A stretch of 23,117 nt of DNA from assembly GCA_013138755.1 (NCBI GenBank), contig WTCC01000011.1:1-23117 (forward strand). Reading direction: 5' to 3'. Within the stretch, counting starts at the first letter, position 1. Each line of letters opens with the position of its first letter. A model generated the notes under the pieces. The model did no database searches. It saw nothing but the letters and a program-made list of their open reading frames with translations, and had not been told where the DNA came from. The DNA comes from Gammaproteobacteria bacterium (GTDB lineage: Bacteria; Pseudomonadota; Gammaproteobacteria; SZUA-229). A program made the position numbers and the translations under genes. Of the stretch, positions 1-6,078 are shown piece after piece.

Positions 1-96
1 CCATATACCAATAGGTAATATAAGTGCACCGATATAATAAAACATTATTAAAGCTTCGGTACTAATAAAAGTTTTAAAAGTAAGGAAATCCATCAT
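1..96 (-). CDS. Partial membrane protein, DUF4282-like N-terminus (cassette ORF)
   Basis: This is the first 32 codons of a minus-strand gene that continues beyond the left edge. The translation begins MMDFLTFKTFISTEALI and runs into a hydrophobic stretch (FYYIGALILPIGIW), so a membrane segment starts near residue 19. The opening FLTFKTFI followed by a YYIG transmembrane segment reminds me of small DUF4282-type membrane proteins, but this is recall from a short fragment. Two ATGs are adjacent (96 and 93) and no good ribosome binding site is visible. The start lies 26 bases after the GTTAGGC core of the attC-like site at 121-210. That is the usual spacing for a gene-cassette ORF, and it is the main reason to believe the frame is real. 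Confidence 0.45.
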   Translation of the reverse strand, partial: MMDFLTFKTFISTEALIMFYYIGALILPIGIW

Positions 97-120
97 GAAT
101 TAATGCTCATGTTGTATAGC

Positions 121-210
121 TTGCCTAACGCTTAAGCTCAGTTGACGGCAATACAGAGTGTAAAGCAGCAAAACGGCGTATTGACTGGTCAACTTAAGTG
201 GTTTATTAGT
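121..210 (-). repeat. attC-like integron recombination site (site A)
   Basis: Read on the minus strand this stretch ends in GCGTTAGGCA, which fits the GTTRRRY core of an attC site. Its other end carries TAATAAACC, similar to the TAACAAACG end of Vibrio repeats. Between them are nested inverted repeats in the order expected of an imperfect folded attC: CTTAAG at 131-136 with 193-198, GTTGAC/GTCAAC at 141-146 with 188-193, and CAATAC/GTATTG at 149-154 with 178-183. An unpaired bulge sits on one side only. The length of about 90 bases is within the attC range. It lies just after the stop of the TRIC gene and just before the next ORF start, as the 3-prime site of a cassette should. Confidence 0.65.
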
Positions 211-237
211 CATGGTAGTTAATATCTACTCAGTAGA

Positions 238-873
238 TTAAGTTTTAAAACGGAATTTGGGTAAGCTAATATTAAAGCGTATGGCTATTAAACGTGCCGC
301 GAAAATCCCGGTGCCAGCCATTATGGCCGAAGCAGTTACACCAAAGTTAAAATGCAGCAAACCAATAAAAGCTAGCGACCCTACCCAAGAGACTGTTGCA
401 TATAAGGGGCTTGAGAAAACAACTGGCTGCTCATTGCAAAGTATGTCACGAAATATACCACCCATTGCGCCTGTCATAACACCCATAAAACTAGCGACCA
501 AAGCAGGCGCACCGACCATGAGAGAAACCAACGTACCTGCAACACCAAATGTTGCAAGACCCGCTGCATCTGCGACCAAAAAGAATTTAGGAGATATTTT
601 TATTAACCTCGCAGAAATAAATATAACTATTGCACTAATAAGAGACACTAAAAAAAAGGTTTGATCATGAATCCAAAAAACATCTCTATCAAGAAGCATG
701 TCACGTAGTGAGCCACCACCTAACCCTGTTGCAATGGCAATAATAATTACACCGAATAAATCAAATTGTTTAAATCCAGCCTTTAGAACCCCAGATGTAG
801 ATGACACTATTACAGCTAGCAGTGTAATCCAATAAAGGCTTTCTAATAATTCAGGTGTTGGGTTTAAATTCAT
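238..873 (-). CDS. TRIC/UPF0126 family membrane protein (YicG-like), cassette-borne
   Basis: This 211-residue inner-membrane protein has about seven hydrophobic segments. It shows the internal duplication typical of the UPF0126/TRIC family: GLGGGSLRDMLL in the first half and GAMGGIFRDILCNEQP in the second. Bacterial TRIC relatives are trimeric channels for monovalent cations; E. coli YicG and YadS are the uncharacterised relatives I have in mind. Length is normal for the family. The ATG at 873 begins 18 bases after the GTTAGGC core of attC site B and has no clear Shine-Dalgarno sequence, which is common for cassette genes. The stop is followed within 30 bases by attC site A. The gene plus site A therefore has the layout of one complete integron cassette. 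Family assignment is firm; the ion carried and the physiological role are unknown. Confidence 0.88.
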   Translation of the reverse strand: MNLNPTPELLESLYWITLLAVIVSSTSGVLKAGFKQFDLFGVIIIAIATGLGGGSLRDMLLDRDVFWIHDQTFFLVSLISAIVIFISARLIKISPKFFLVADAAGLATFGVAGTLVSLMVGAPALVASFMGVMTGAMGGIFRDILCNEQPVVFSSPLYATVSWVGSLAFIGLLHFNFGVTASAIMAGTGIFAARLIAIRFNISLPKFRFKT

Positions 874-890
874 AAGTAATTAATTATTAT

Positions 891-996
891 TGCCTAACGT
901 TCGAGTTAAGTAACCACAGCAACTCACATGAATATGAGGAAGTGCAGCAATGCAGTTACCGTGAAGCGATAGTCGCGCTTGAACGATTTGTTATCG
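891..996 (-). repeat. attC-like integron recombination site (site B)
   Basis: On the minus strand this begins with GATAACAAATCGTTCAAG and ends with CTCGAACGTTAGGCA. These are close to the outer ends of well-known resistance-cassette attC sites. CGTTC/GAACG (898-902 with 981-985) and GTAAC/GTTAC (910-914 with 955-959) pair as nested inverted repeats. The arms are unequal, so the fold is imperfect, as expected for attC. It shares the terminal CGTTAGGCA with site A, while the interiors differ, the usual pattern among attC sites in one array. It lies between the MAPEG-like remnant and the TRIC gene. Confidence 0.68.
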
Positions 997-1039
997 TTTT
1001 TTCATTACTCTATAGTGTATTCAGTTTAATAGCCCAGCT

Positions 1040-1183
1040 TTAATAACCAGGCAAGCCCACATAGAAAGGACTAATTTCACCCTTGCGGACGGATTGAACG
1101 CAATTTCTAAGTAGCGTAATCAACACAATAAAGGTAAGGACTACCATTGCGAACATGGGATAAATCAGAATAAATTGATTCAT
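1040..1183 (-). pseudogene. Truncated MAPEG-like membrane protein remnant
   Basis: A 47-codon frame begins ATG at 1183, preceded by AAAGGGCA as a possible ribosome binding site. It encodes MNQFILIYPMFAMVVLTF, continues through a hydrophobic helix to RNCVQSVRKGEISPFY, and stops. The YPMFAMVxLTFxVL pattern followed by a basic RVxxVRxG-E-S segment matches the start of bacterial MAPEG-family proteins as I recall them. Those are normally around 130 residues with four helices; only the first is present here. The frame stops about 45 bases before attC site B, so the gene was probably truncated when the cassette region was acquired, or it is a decayed cassette. A genuine small single-helix protein cannot be excluded. 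The rest of the 371-base gap between the TRIC gene and the lipoprotein gene holds only attC site B and AT-rich sequence. Confidence 0.5.
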
Positions 1184-1244
1184 CTATTTAAATGCCCTTT
1201 ATAAACAGAATCTGCAATAAGCTTCTTACTTTATACACTACATG

Positions 1245-1472
1245 CTATCTAGTTTGTTCTTCTATTTGTTTAGCACGCTGATCAGCATTATCTTGTAGCA
1301 TTTGCTCTACGCCTTTCGCCTTATCAAGCGCCCGCTTTTGGTCTGATGCGAAATGTTCCTTACCCAGGTTTTCTCCCGCAATTTCCTCGGTCGTCTTTTC
1401 TTCAGCTGGTGAACATGCTGTTATAACGATTGATGATGTTATAAGCGAAACATATAAAATTGTTTTAAACAT
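1245..1472 (-). CDS. Small lipoprotein of unknown function
   Basis: The start at 1472 (MFKTILYVSL) gives 75 residues. An upstream ATG at 1487 would add five residues (MDERI) in front of the signal peptide and is less likely. The N-terminus is a short basic-hydrophobic signal followed by the lipobox VITAC, so cysteine 20 of this form would be lipidated and the protein anchored in the envelope. The mature part is highly charged, rich in E, K, Q and A, and probably helical (KRALDKAKGVEQMLQDNADQ). I do not recognise a named family. It starts 28 bases after the stop of the PhnA-like gene on the same strand, so it is probably the last gene of the ubiD-phnA transcript. Function is unknown. Confidence 0.72.
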   Translation of the reverse strand: MFKTILYVSLITSSIVITACSPAEEKTTEEIAGENLGKEHFASDQKRALDKAKGVEQMLQDNADQRAKQIEEQTR

Positions 1473-1500
1473 TATTCTTTCATCCATTTTATTTAAATAA

Positions 1501-2094
1501 CTAATTAGATTTTTTTACAAATTTAGTCAATATAACAATTCGTTGCCCCTCTACTTTTCCTTCTATGTGCTCCGGGTTATCGTCTACTAAAGAAATGCCG
1601 CGAATTGCTGTACCACGTTTGGCGGTAAAGTTTGCGCCTTTTACATTTAGATCTTTTGTTAACGTGACCGTATCGCCAGCTTCGAGTACAGCCCCATTAC
1701 TATCAAAATGTTTTGCTTCCGCTTCTGCCTCTAGTCCTTCACCTGTTGCCTGTGCCCAAGCCAATGTTTCATCATCGAGATATAATGTATCGAGTAAGTC
1801 TTGCGGCCAACCTTCTTGACTCAAACGTGTAAGCATTCGCCACGCCAACACCTGTACGGCCGGAATCTGGCTCCACATGCTGTCATTAAGACAGCGCCAA
1901 TGATTTATTTCTTCTGAACTCGGATTATCTATCTGTGTTTGGCATATTCCACATAGTAATACACTATCATCTGTCGTTGCTTTTGAATCAGGCGGTACTT
2001 CATACACACGCAAATCTTCCGTGGCATTACATAATTCACATTTAGATTCACTACGCGCCTTTAATACATCTGATATTGGATTTACTTCTAACAT
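1501..2094 (-). CDS. PhnA/YjdM-type zinc-ribbon protein
   Basis: This 197-residue protein has an N-terminal zinc ribbon with cysteine pairs C19-x2-C22 and C48-x2-C51. Its C-terminal half is the conserved PhnA domain (DSNGAVLEAGDTVTLTKDLNVKG and KRGTAIRGI, ending EGQRIVILTKFVKK). Family members are often labelled alkylphosphonate-utilisation protein PhnA for historical reasons. The E. coli relative YjdM is not part of the C-P lyase, and its biochemical role is unresolved, so no phosphonate function should be inferred. Between the ribbon and the C-terminal domain is a helical segment with WRMLTRLSQEGWPQDLLDTLYLD, as in the longer PhnA forms. Its ATG overlaps the ubiD stop by one base (TAATG), implying translational coupling. 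Confidence 0.88.
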   Translation of the reverse strand: MLEVNPISDVLKARSESKCELCNATEDLRVYEVPPDSKATTDDSVLLCGICQTQIDNPSSEEINHWRCLNDSMWSQIPAVQVLAWRMLTRLSQEGWPQDLLDTLYLDDETLAWAQATGEGLEAEAEAKHFDSNGAVLEAGDTVTLTKDLNVKGANFTAKRGTAIRGISLVDDNPEHIEGKVEGQRIVILTKFVKKSN

Positions 2095-3560
2095 TAATCT
2101 AAGCCTAACTCACTCCACAGATCGTCGACTCGTTTCTTCACCGCCTCATCCATCTTTATAGGTGTACCCCACTCTCTATCTGTTTCACCTGGTAATTTAT
2201 TTGTTGCATCGATTCCAACTTTAGAACCTAAACCTGAGACAGGGGAAGCAAAATCAAGATAGTCGATCGGTGTATTTTCGATCATCGTAAAATCACGTAC
2301 CGGGTCAACACGCGTACTCATCGCCCAGATTACATCCTGCCAATCTCGAGTGTTCACATCATCATCAACAACGATAACAAATTTTGTATACATGAATTGA
2401 CGTAAGTACGACCACACTCCCATCATCACGCGTTTCGCATGACCGGGATATTGTTTTTTCATACTGACAACTGCTACTCGATAAGAACAGCCTTCTGGCG
2501 GTAGATAAAAATCGACTATCTCTGGAAATTGTTTCTGTAATATCGGAATAAATACTTCATTTAATGCGACACCTAAAATTGCAGGCTCGTCTGGTGGACG
2601 CCCGGTGTATGTGCTGTGATATATCGGGTTTTTACGATGACTAATTCGTTCTATGGTGAACACAGGAAACGTTTCCGTTTCGTTATAATAACCAGTGTGA
2701 TCGCCGTAAGGTCCTTCTTCAGCAAATTCATCAGGGTATATAAACCCCTCTAAAATATATTCAGCAGAAGCGGGAACTTGCAGTTCACTCAGTGCGCACT
2801 TCACCACCTCTGTCTTACTGCCTCGTAACAAACCGGCAAAACCATATTCTGATAACGAGTCGGGTACTGGTGTTACTGCGCCTAATATCGTTGCAGGATC
2901 TGCACCTAGCGCAACAGCTATCGGAAAGGGTTCGCCCAGATGCTGTTGTTGCCATTCCCGAAAATCCAGAGCTCCGCCTCGCTGCGCTAACCAACGCATG
3001 ATAACTTTATTTTTTGCGATTACCTGTTGACGGTAGATGCCTAAGTTCTGTCGCTCTTTTTCTGGGCCTTTAGTAACGACTAATCCCCAGGTAATAAGCG
3101 GTGCCACATCGCCAGGCCAACAGGTTTGTATGGGTATAGTATTTAAATCAACTTCATCTTTTTCAAAAACGATTTCCTGGCAGGGCGCTTTTTTAATTAC
3201 TTTTGGCGCCATATTTAATACCTGTTTAAAAACAGGCATTTTCTCCCAGGCATCTTTTAATCCTTTAGGCGGATCAGGCTCTTTCAGGAAGGCGAGTAAT
3301 TTTCCAACTTCACGTAATGCATCGATGGAGTCTTCACCCATTCCCATTGCGACACGTTGTGTGGTACCGAATAAATTTGCCAATATTGGAACAGGTGATC
3401 CTTTTACGTTCTCGAATAATAAGGCTGGGCCCTGTTGCTTCAGGGTGCGATCGCAGATTTCTGTGATTTCGAGATAAGGGTCAACCTCTACGCTGATACG
3501 TTTTAATAACCCTTTTTTTTCAAGTTGCGCAATGAAGTCACGCAGATCGTTATATTTCAT
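2094..3560 (-). CDS. ubiD: UbiD, 4-hydroxy-3-polyprenylbenzoate decarboxylase
   Basis: UbiD removes the carboxyl group from the polyprenylated 4-hydroxybenzoate ring in ubiquinone biosynthesis, using prenylated FMN supplied by UbiX. The 488-residue length is typical. Visible landmarks are NLGIYRQQV at about 172-180 (prFMN and metal site), [10 protein letters not shown], the substrate-side segment [11 protein letters not shown] at 282-292 containing the conserved acidic residues (E282, D287), and [14 protein letters not shown]. The start [17 protein letters not shown] matches other UbiD N-termini. The gene is transcribed away from gyrB, separated from it by a probable terminator, and is coupled to the PhnA-like gene downstream. 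Its presence indicates an organism that respires with ubiquinone. Confidence 0.97.
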
Positions 3561-3592
3561 TTATTTTCTAGCAAGTTATATTTAAATTGAAG

Positions 3593-3637
3593 AAAAATTT
3601 AAGCCCTGCTCAAACAACTATTTAGAAATGGCTTAAA
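3593..3637 (-). terminator. Probable gyrB terminator
   Basis: In the minus-strand direction TTTAAGCC (3637-3630) is followed by a 24-base loop, GGCTTAAA (3605-3598) and then five T residues (3597-3593). This gives a perfect 8-bp stem with a U-tract, 15 bases past the gyrB stop. The loop is longer than in classic intrinsic terminators, so strength is uncertain. Confidence 0.45.
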
Positions 3638-3651
3638 AATATATGAATAAT

Positions 3652-6078
<2,427 letters not shown>

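Follow-up and report, generated by a model that had tools for sequence, protein, structure and literature searches.

Gene organization of the locus

The window described here is a stretch of 23,117 bases that represents one entire contig (C256) of a draft genome of 2.15 Mb, distributed over 368 contigs, 73% complete and with a contamination of 3.9%. From the dnaA-gyrB side leftwards, the minus strand carries ubiD, phnA, an ORF of 80 aa, an ORF of 47 codons, attC site 2, an ORF encoding a TRIC/UPF0126-type membrane protein, attC site 1 and a truncated ORF (Table 1); the array continues past base 1, where the contig ends. According to the ORF coordinates, site 2 lies about 2.7 kb from the end of gyrB, 7.7 kb from the stop of dnaA and 9.0 kb from its start. 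The names gyrB, ubiD and dnaA are presumptive ones given by the look of the sequences, as are hemY-like, hemD-like and glutaredoxin-like below, and none of these comes from a family search; phnA, MOSC, the reductase domains, the LysR-type gene, ccmE and the IS91 domains were named by Pfam. No match was obtained in Rfam at the gathering score, nor in a plasmid search with bases 1-1600 as query.

Table 1. Features between phnA and the end of the contig, all of them on the minus strand.
Feature	Position	Strand	Evidence and remarks
Start of next cassette ORF	1..96	-	At most 32 codons visible, cut by contig end; perhaps DUF4282-like
attC site 1	123..211	-	Closes the TRIC cassette at its 3' end; R' box GTTAGGC preserved, R'' box (GACTAAT) degraded
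TRIC/UPF0126-type membrane protein (Gly_transporter PF03458)	238..873	-	211 aa, intact; Pfam 117.2 bits, cut-off 23.5
attC site 2	892..996	-	Front-most attC; R' GTTAGGC intact, R'' CGATAAC; arms long, irregular
Membrane ORF, 47 codons	1040..1183	-	Open frame just upstream of site 2
Lipoprotein-like ORF, 80 aa	1245..1487	-	Open frame between phnA and the array
phnA/YjdM	1501..2094	-	PF03831, 94.8 bits; last gene of the conserved ubiD side, flanks the cluster; beside ubiD in several relatives

The TRIC ORF is maintained by selection, with pN values of 0.13-0.16 against pS values of 0.67-0.82 in five comparisons in which synonymous changes are near saturation, and its public homologues are up to 98% identical. 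The ORF at the contig end shows a tentative likeness to PF14110 (13.4 bits, E 0.13, under the cut-off of 27). No Pfam family above cut-off was found for the 47-codon ORF, which has one weak match in another genome (E 0.003); a suspected likeness to MAPEG was supported by no search. The lipoprotein-like ORF has a 58% homologue elsewhere in the genome G005 and 38 homologues among public proteins. Neither small ORF was found beside phnA in the relatives examined, so that the unusual stretch extends to about position 1500 and does not give way to ordinary chromosome at 1040-1245, where the initial annotation had placed the border. No outstanding promoter occurs over positions 1-3700 (seven promoter-like sites against 10.8 expected); given this and the codirectional genes, read-through from ubiD-phnA is a likely expression route, by which the TRIC ORF is probably transcribed.

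Identification of the attC sites

Both sites end in CGTTAGGCA on the minus strand, a shared terminus already remarked upon in the initial annotation. The string occurs ten times in the genome, against 12 times for its reversed control; being as common as the control it constitutes no evidence by itself, and for this reason 20 attC sites were collected for a covariance model. The R' box GTTRRRY is present as GTTAGGC (123-129 and 892-898), a motif which on its own is at chance level, its number being equalled in 61 of 200 shuffles. At its threshold, an attC scanner written by hand overlooked all four sites of contig G012:C50 as well as both window sites, and was therefore replaced by the covariance model.

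This model (R1) was built from sites of arrays on integrase-carrying contigs of eight other genomes; no sequence of the source genome was used for training, although one of the training sites (L150:11532-11622) is closely related to site 1. The training alignment supports the R and L arms: 87.9% of the cells are paired and, of 15 pairs, 10 show changes in both partners, two measures on which none of 500 shuffles did as well, slid controls reaching at most 41%; on one measure, further pair types, 38 of the 500 shuffles did as well. The search of the contig returned site 1 with 40.9 bits (E 3.5e-8) and site 2 with 36.9 bits (E 3.5e-7), both on the minus strand and at the places initially annotated, and no third match in the 23,117 bases up to E=10, the E-values of such a model being rough. 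Both are confirmed as integron attC sites. Site 1 also resembles individual sites of the same genus: its local alignment score with the attC behind the intI of G012:C50 is 92 (maximum in 300 shuffles, 32), and it agrees with an attC of G012:C54 in 90% of 71 aligned bases. For site 2, plain alignment was tried against six sites and beat the shuffles with only one, L150 site A (score 38, best shuffle 34); having no close relative by this measure, its identity rests on the model.

The two sites are separated by 680 bases and bracket the complete TRIC ORF, as had been described from the sequence, and they are followed at cassette spacing by the next ATG (18 bases from 892 to 873, and 26 bases from 123 to 96). 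The source genome carries attC matches on other contigs as well: with C256 counted in, nine contigs gave at least 12 matches at E values of 10 or less, seven of the 12 with E<0.05, when 150 of 266 candidates were scored. With the model and the accompanying set of integrase loci, a resource was gained for a gammaproteobacterial genus known here from drafts only. One of these drafts, G005, contains 35 attC matches at E<=0.1 over many contigs (L249-L252) and two integrases, which amounts to a large cassette store.

Folding and probable decay of the attC sites

In contrast to the R' boxes, which are intact, the R'' boxes are altered. In the R1 alignment, R'' of site 1 retains five Watson-Crick pairs and a T-G pair and has lost the AAC triplet, and that of site 2 keeps AAC and pairs at four of seven positions. 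Bottom-strand folding, proposed in the initial annotation as a check, had no clear advantage over shuffles and gave no stable fold: z was -0.57 for site 1 and -1.42 for site 2 (-0.53 and -1.91, respectively, with longer cuts), and 19 of the 20 training sites, with a median z of about -3.1, fold better than both. Across both sites and strands z ranged from -0.5 to -1.9; the bottom strand was slightly more stable than the top in each site, and the best fold, that of the site 2 bottom strand, was equalled by 11 of 200 shuffles. The poor folding together with the damaged R'' boxes is read here as decay of the attC sites, which now probably recombine poorly. That they were once functional is indicated by their intact R' cut boxes and by arms of the type found in this lineage.

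The front of the array and the integron integrase

By the orientation of the cassettes, the front of the array (the attI side) faces phnA, that is, the origin side. The suggestion of a larger leftward array, of which the fragment could be the distal end, consequently had the ends the wrong way round, and was right in that the array does continue leftwards. No intI match exists on the 23-kb contig, and the interval 996-1501, where intI belongs and where a complete integron would carry it, holds two small ORFs and then phnA. As for attI, a search by motif found no exact GTTRRRY on the minus strand between site 2 and phnA. Over the whole assembly (73% complete), the best match to an integron-integrase profile scored 81 bits against a cut-off of 265, a cut-off exceeded in 10 of 17 same-genus genomes. 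Given an array that continues beyond base 1 and a genome of which part is missing, the absence of intI applies to the front side and to the assembled part of the genome; the description as integrase-less holds for the origin side and the contig, and genome-wide for that assembled part only. The integrase match covers 315 positions; in several genomes the open frame around it is 430-497 residues long, which hints at N-terminal extensions.

The attC sites of chromosomal integrons are described as oriented with their bottom strands on the leading-strand template (PMC11023631). If replication starts at dnaA, the bottom strands of the window sites would likewise lie on the leading-strand template.

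The locus in related genomes

In genomes of the same genus, the first neighbour beyond phnA is a small membrane gene, a glutaredoxin-like gene that faces phnA, or both in a row, and then come the genes for a 2Fe-2S reductase, a MOSC protein, a hemY-like and a hemD-like protein; one or more of these genes are missing in some genomes, and in G013 the reductase gene comes directly after phnA. None of 14 same-genus loci at ubiD and/or phnA (L123-L136) contains an attC match. Seven of these are informative (G002, G005, G006, G008, G009, G010 and G013), with phnA and 2.6-11.9 kb beyond it, so that attC at the phnA junction was seen in none of the seven same-genus genomes that show it. The other seven say little because phnA is not beside ubiD in them and the room is limited (0-10.8 kb beyond ubiD, none in G007). 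Neither of the outcomes that the initial annotation had named as refuting came about: a covariance model matches both sites, and the seven same-genus genomes that show the junction have no attC there.

In the source genome, the small membrane, glutaredoxin-like, reductase, MOSC and hemY-like genes are located on contig C232 in the order of the relatives, and the end of this contig cuts the small membrane gene. In the simplest reading, the array would sit in the junction between phnA and the membrane gene, and C256 and C232, which are not joined in the data, would flank one insertion. The bases after the phnA stop (TAGTTATT) are common to G005, which has no insertion, and no clean front boundary (G|TT) of a cassette insertion was found at phnA.

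The integron integrase occurs elsewhere in the genus. Five same-genus genomes (G004, G006, G008, G012 and G017, of ten with intI) have a common platform (L141, L144, L147, L149 and L152) in which intI adjoins a lipoprotein gene and a small conserved gene. As its neighbours differ from those of the window, the window cluster lies off-platform, and it does not look like a capture platform near oriC. G026, of the same family, has beside phnA a gene that is 34% related to the platform lipoprotein gene (L046, G026:C17, 1501-2798), which may point to a former link between the intI platform and the phnA locus. In G009, intI is on the same contig as phnA (L123, G009:C63, 153-1790), at a distance of about 2.6 kb from it, and follows the MOSC gene after 12 bases. 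The corresponding junction is closed in the source genome, where the gap between the MOSC and hemY-like genes on C232 is 12 bases, and descent of the array from a G009-type integron by simple deletion was rejected on this basis.

Origin of the cassette cluster

Taken together, the stretch from position 1 to about 1500 most likely represents an off-platform group of integron cassettes (CALIN) downstream of phnA, seen at its front end. It would occupy the junction where relatives have the small membrane and glutaredoxin-like genes, some 8-9 kb from dnaA. An integron integrase working in trans may have placed the cassettes there, with a non-canonical, attG-like chromosomal site as its target; or else a rearrangement may have severed an array from its platform and left cassettes beside phnA. 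With no integrase nearby and with weakened arms, the cassettes would probably be static. Several points count against this reading. With its ORFs 1245-1487 and 1040-1183, the front segment does not have the make-up of an ordinary single-gene cassette; both sites fold no more clearly than shuffles; phnA is without a clean cassette boundary; the phnA locus of G026 has a relative of the platform lipoprotein gene; and, given the contig end and the 73% completeness, an integrase may lie beyond the left end or in the missing part.

That a chromosomal rearrangement, and not insertion by an integrase, joined an existing array to the phnA side is a possibility of some standing, if still a doubtful one. 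It would account for the lack of a recognisable recombination boundary at phnA and for a front that holds a short ORF of no assigned family next to a lipoprotein-like ORF with a relative elsewhere in G005. On the other hand, the flanking genes, ubiD-phnA on one side and the glutaredoxin-like, reductase, MOSC and hemY-like genes on the other, keep the order seen in relatives, as would be expected for a simple insertion.

The window could also contain one broken end of a complete chromosomal integron whose array was inverted or split and whose intI lies further left or unassembled, its absence being an assembly effect. Fragmentation and incompleteness of the draft (368 contigs, 73%) leave room for this, as does the G009 arrangement, with intI on the phnA contig 12 bases past MOSC. 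Arrays do break assemblies, given that each of the 12 intI contigs listed for the genus stops within 0.2-4.6 kb in the direction of the array, and drafts are described as overestimating CALIN (PMC9024848). This explanation is nevertheless unlikely, since the contig includes the array front, where two small ORFs and phnA are found in place of intI, and the junction between MOSC and the hemY-like gene that carries the integrase in G009 is closed in C232 by a gap of 12 bases. Chance inverted repeats in ordinary intergenic DNA, which the unremarkable energy folding, the commonness of the nine-base terminal string and the chance-level R' motif would suit, are hardly credible in view of the E-values of both model matches with no third up to E=10, the strong likeness of site 1 to same-genus attC sites and the fitting cassette spacing and orientation.

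Comparison with known integron systems

Cassette insertion into genomic attG sites was reportedly described by Loot et al. 2024, and the boundary motif of attG is G|WT. The cluster beside phnA resembles such insertions in that its cassettes are surrounded by ordinary host genes and lie away from an attI platform. The junction is free of attC in seven out of seven same-genus genomes that show phnA and its next genes, and no G|WT boundary could be made out at the window locus, so that the cluster is at most a candidate member of this class.

Compared with sedentary chromosomal integrons (e.g., those of Vibrio and Xanthomonas), the window has an attC type that is common between species of the genus; unlike these, it has no integrase at the front and only two visible sites. 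The two attC sites point the same way, have 680 bases between them and share a contig with no intI, and the cluster thereby has the number of sites, at least two close together, by which CALIN are defined (PMC9024848); it departs from that reference in being cut by the contig end, in the weakened folding of its sites and in having been recognised by a model made here and not by that of IntegronFinder. In Xanthomonas, CALINs are described as clusters at several loci away from the intI platform at ilvD (PMC12444791). The present cassettes are similarly located away from a recurrent intI platform with no integrase seen nearby, whereas the lineage is another one, the cluster is known from one genome only, it is missing at the junction in seven same-genus genomes and it lies beside ubiD-phnA and oriC.

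Distribution of the TRIC gene and a remnant at a second locus

TRIC relatives occur in many genomic contexts, and close ones are present in 12 of 274 genomes of the class. Flanks of up to 1.5 kb contained no attC in any of 21 relatives, and the same was true of eight further TRIC loci of the class (0/8), so the candidate view of TRIC as a common cassette was rejected. When wider flanks were inspected in five relatives, same-strand attC matches upstream of TRIC appeared in two, at 2.7 kb (L248, G037:C41) and 2.6 kb (L255, G023:C43), and none near TRIC in G005, G024 and G001. Among 16 named loci scored, L020 (Methylophaga NORP93, 21-4814) has three attC-like matches, the last of which (22.3 bits) ends 9 bases before the TRIC start, and L032 has one weak match about 1 kb from TRIC. 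TRIC is thus for the most part not a cassette gene, and may have some association with arrays. In a study of river sediment, a YadS/trimeric intracellular cation channel gene is listed among the neighbours of dfrB10, its cassette status not being clear there (PMC10432401).

A tree was calculated with 13 of the 16 named loci and 19 of the 21 relatives (33 rows, 30 different sequences). The window copy falls in a supported set of 12 rows (95/85) with copies from Thiotrichaceae, Chromatiales and Methylophaga and with that of the same-genus G001, and the other nine of ten same-genus copies lie outside this set. The source genome contains a second trace of TRIC, a remnant of 36 codons (L243, G000:C319, 1439-1546) located between a LysR-type gene and ccmE, which is the place of the intact TRIC gene in G010. 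The remnant is 69% identical to the window copy, and its best match, narrowly ahead of others, is the G010 copy (86% of 36).

A remnant elsewhere and an intact copy in a cassette suggest, and do not prove, replacement by a cassette-borne TRIC. Tentatively, a case of cassette domestication may be envisaged in which a TRIC gene belonging to a different branch of the family arrived as a cassette downstream of ubiD-phnA near oriC, the copy at the second locus then decayed and the loss of attC folding froze the cassette in place. Loss and regain may also be unlinked, given that seven of the 17 genomes of the genus lack TRIC, and that three of these seven have a completeness of 95% or more. The GC3 of the cassette ORF (0.29), which matches that of host genes such as gyrB (0.30), and the 3.9% contamination of the draft count against replacement. 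The literature searched contained no report of cassette-borne gene replacement, which is weak evidence of absence. If the replacement is true, it would provide a concrete case of cassettes entering the core chromosome, testable by genome comparison. At this locus near the origin, cassettes have apparently outlived their integrase and are becoming ordinary genes.

IS91-type elements beside attC-like sites

Two further contigs of the source genome carry an IS91-type transposase (Y2_Tnp and a zinc domain) with a tyrosine recombinase: L158 (G000:C278, 1313-3448), where the recombinase frame is broken, and L244 (G000:C138, 3960-5260), where the recombinase is a fragment. In both, the element adjoins the R'' side of an attC-like site. 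The site in C138 scores 24.0 bits with R1, and that in C278 is weak (14.6 bits, outside the genome-wide matches) and folds well, with a z of -3.06.
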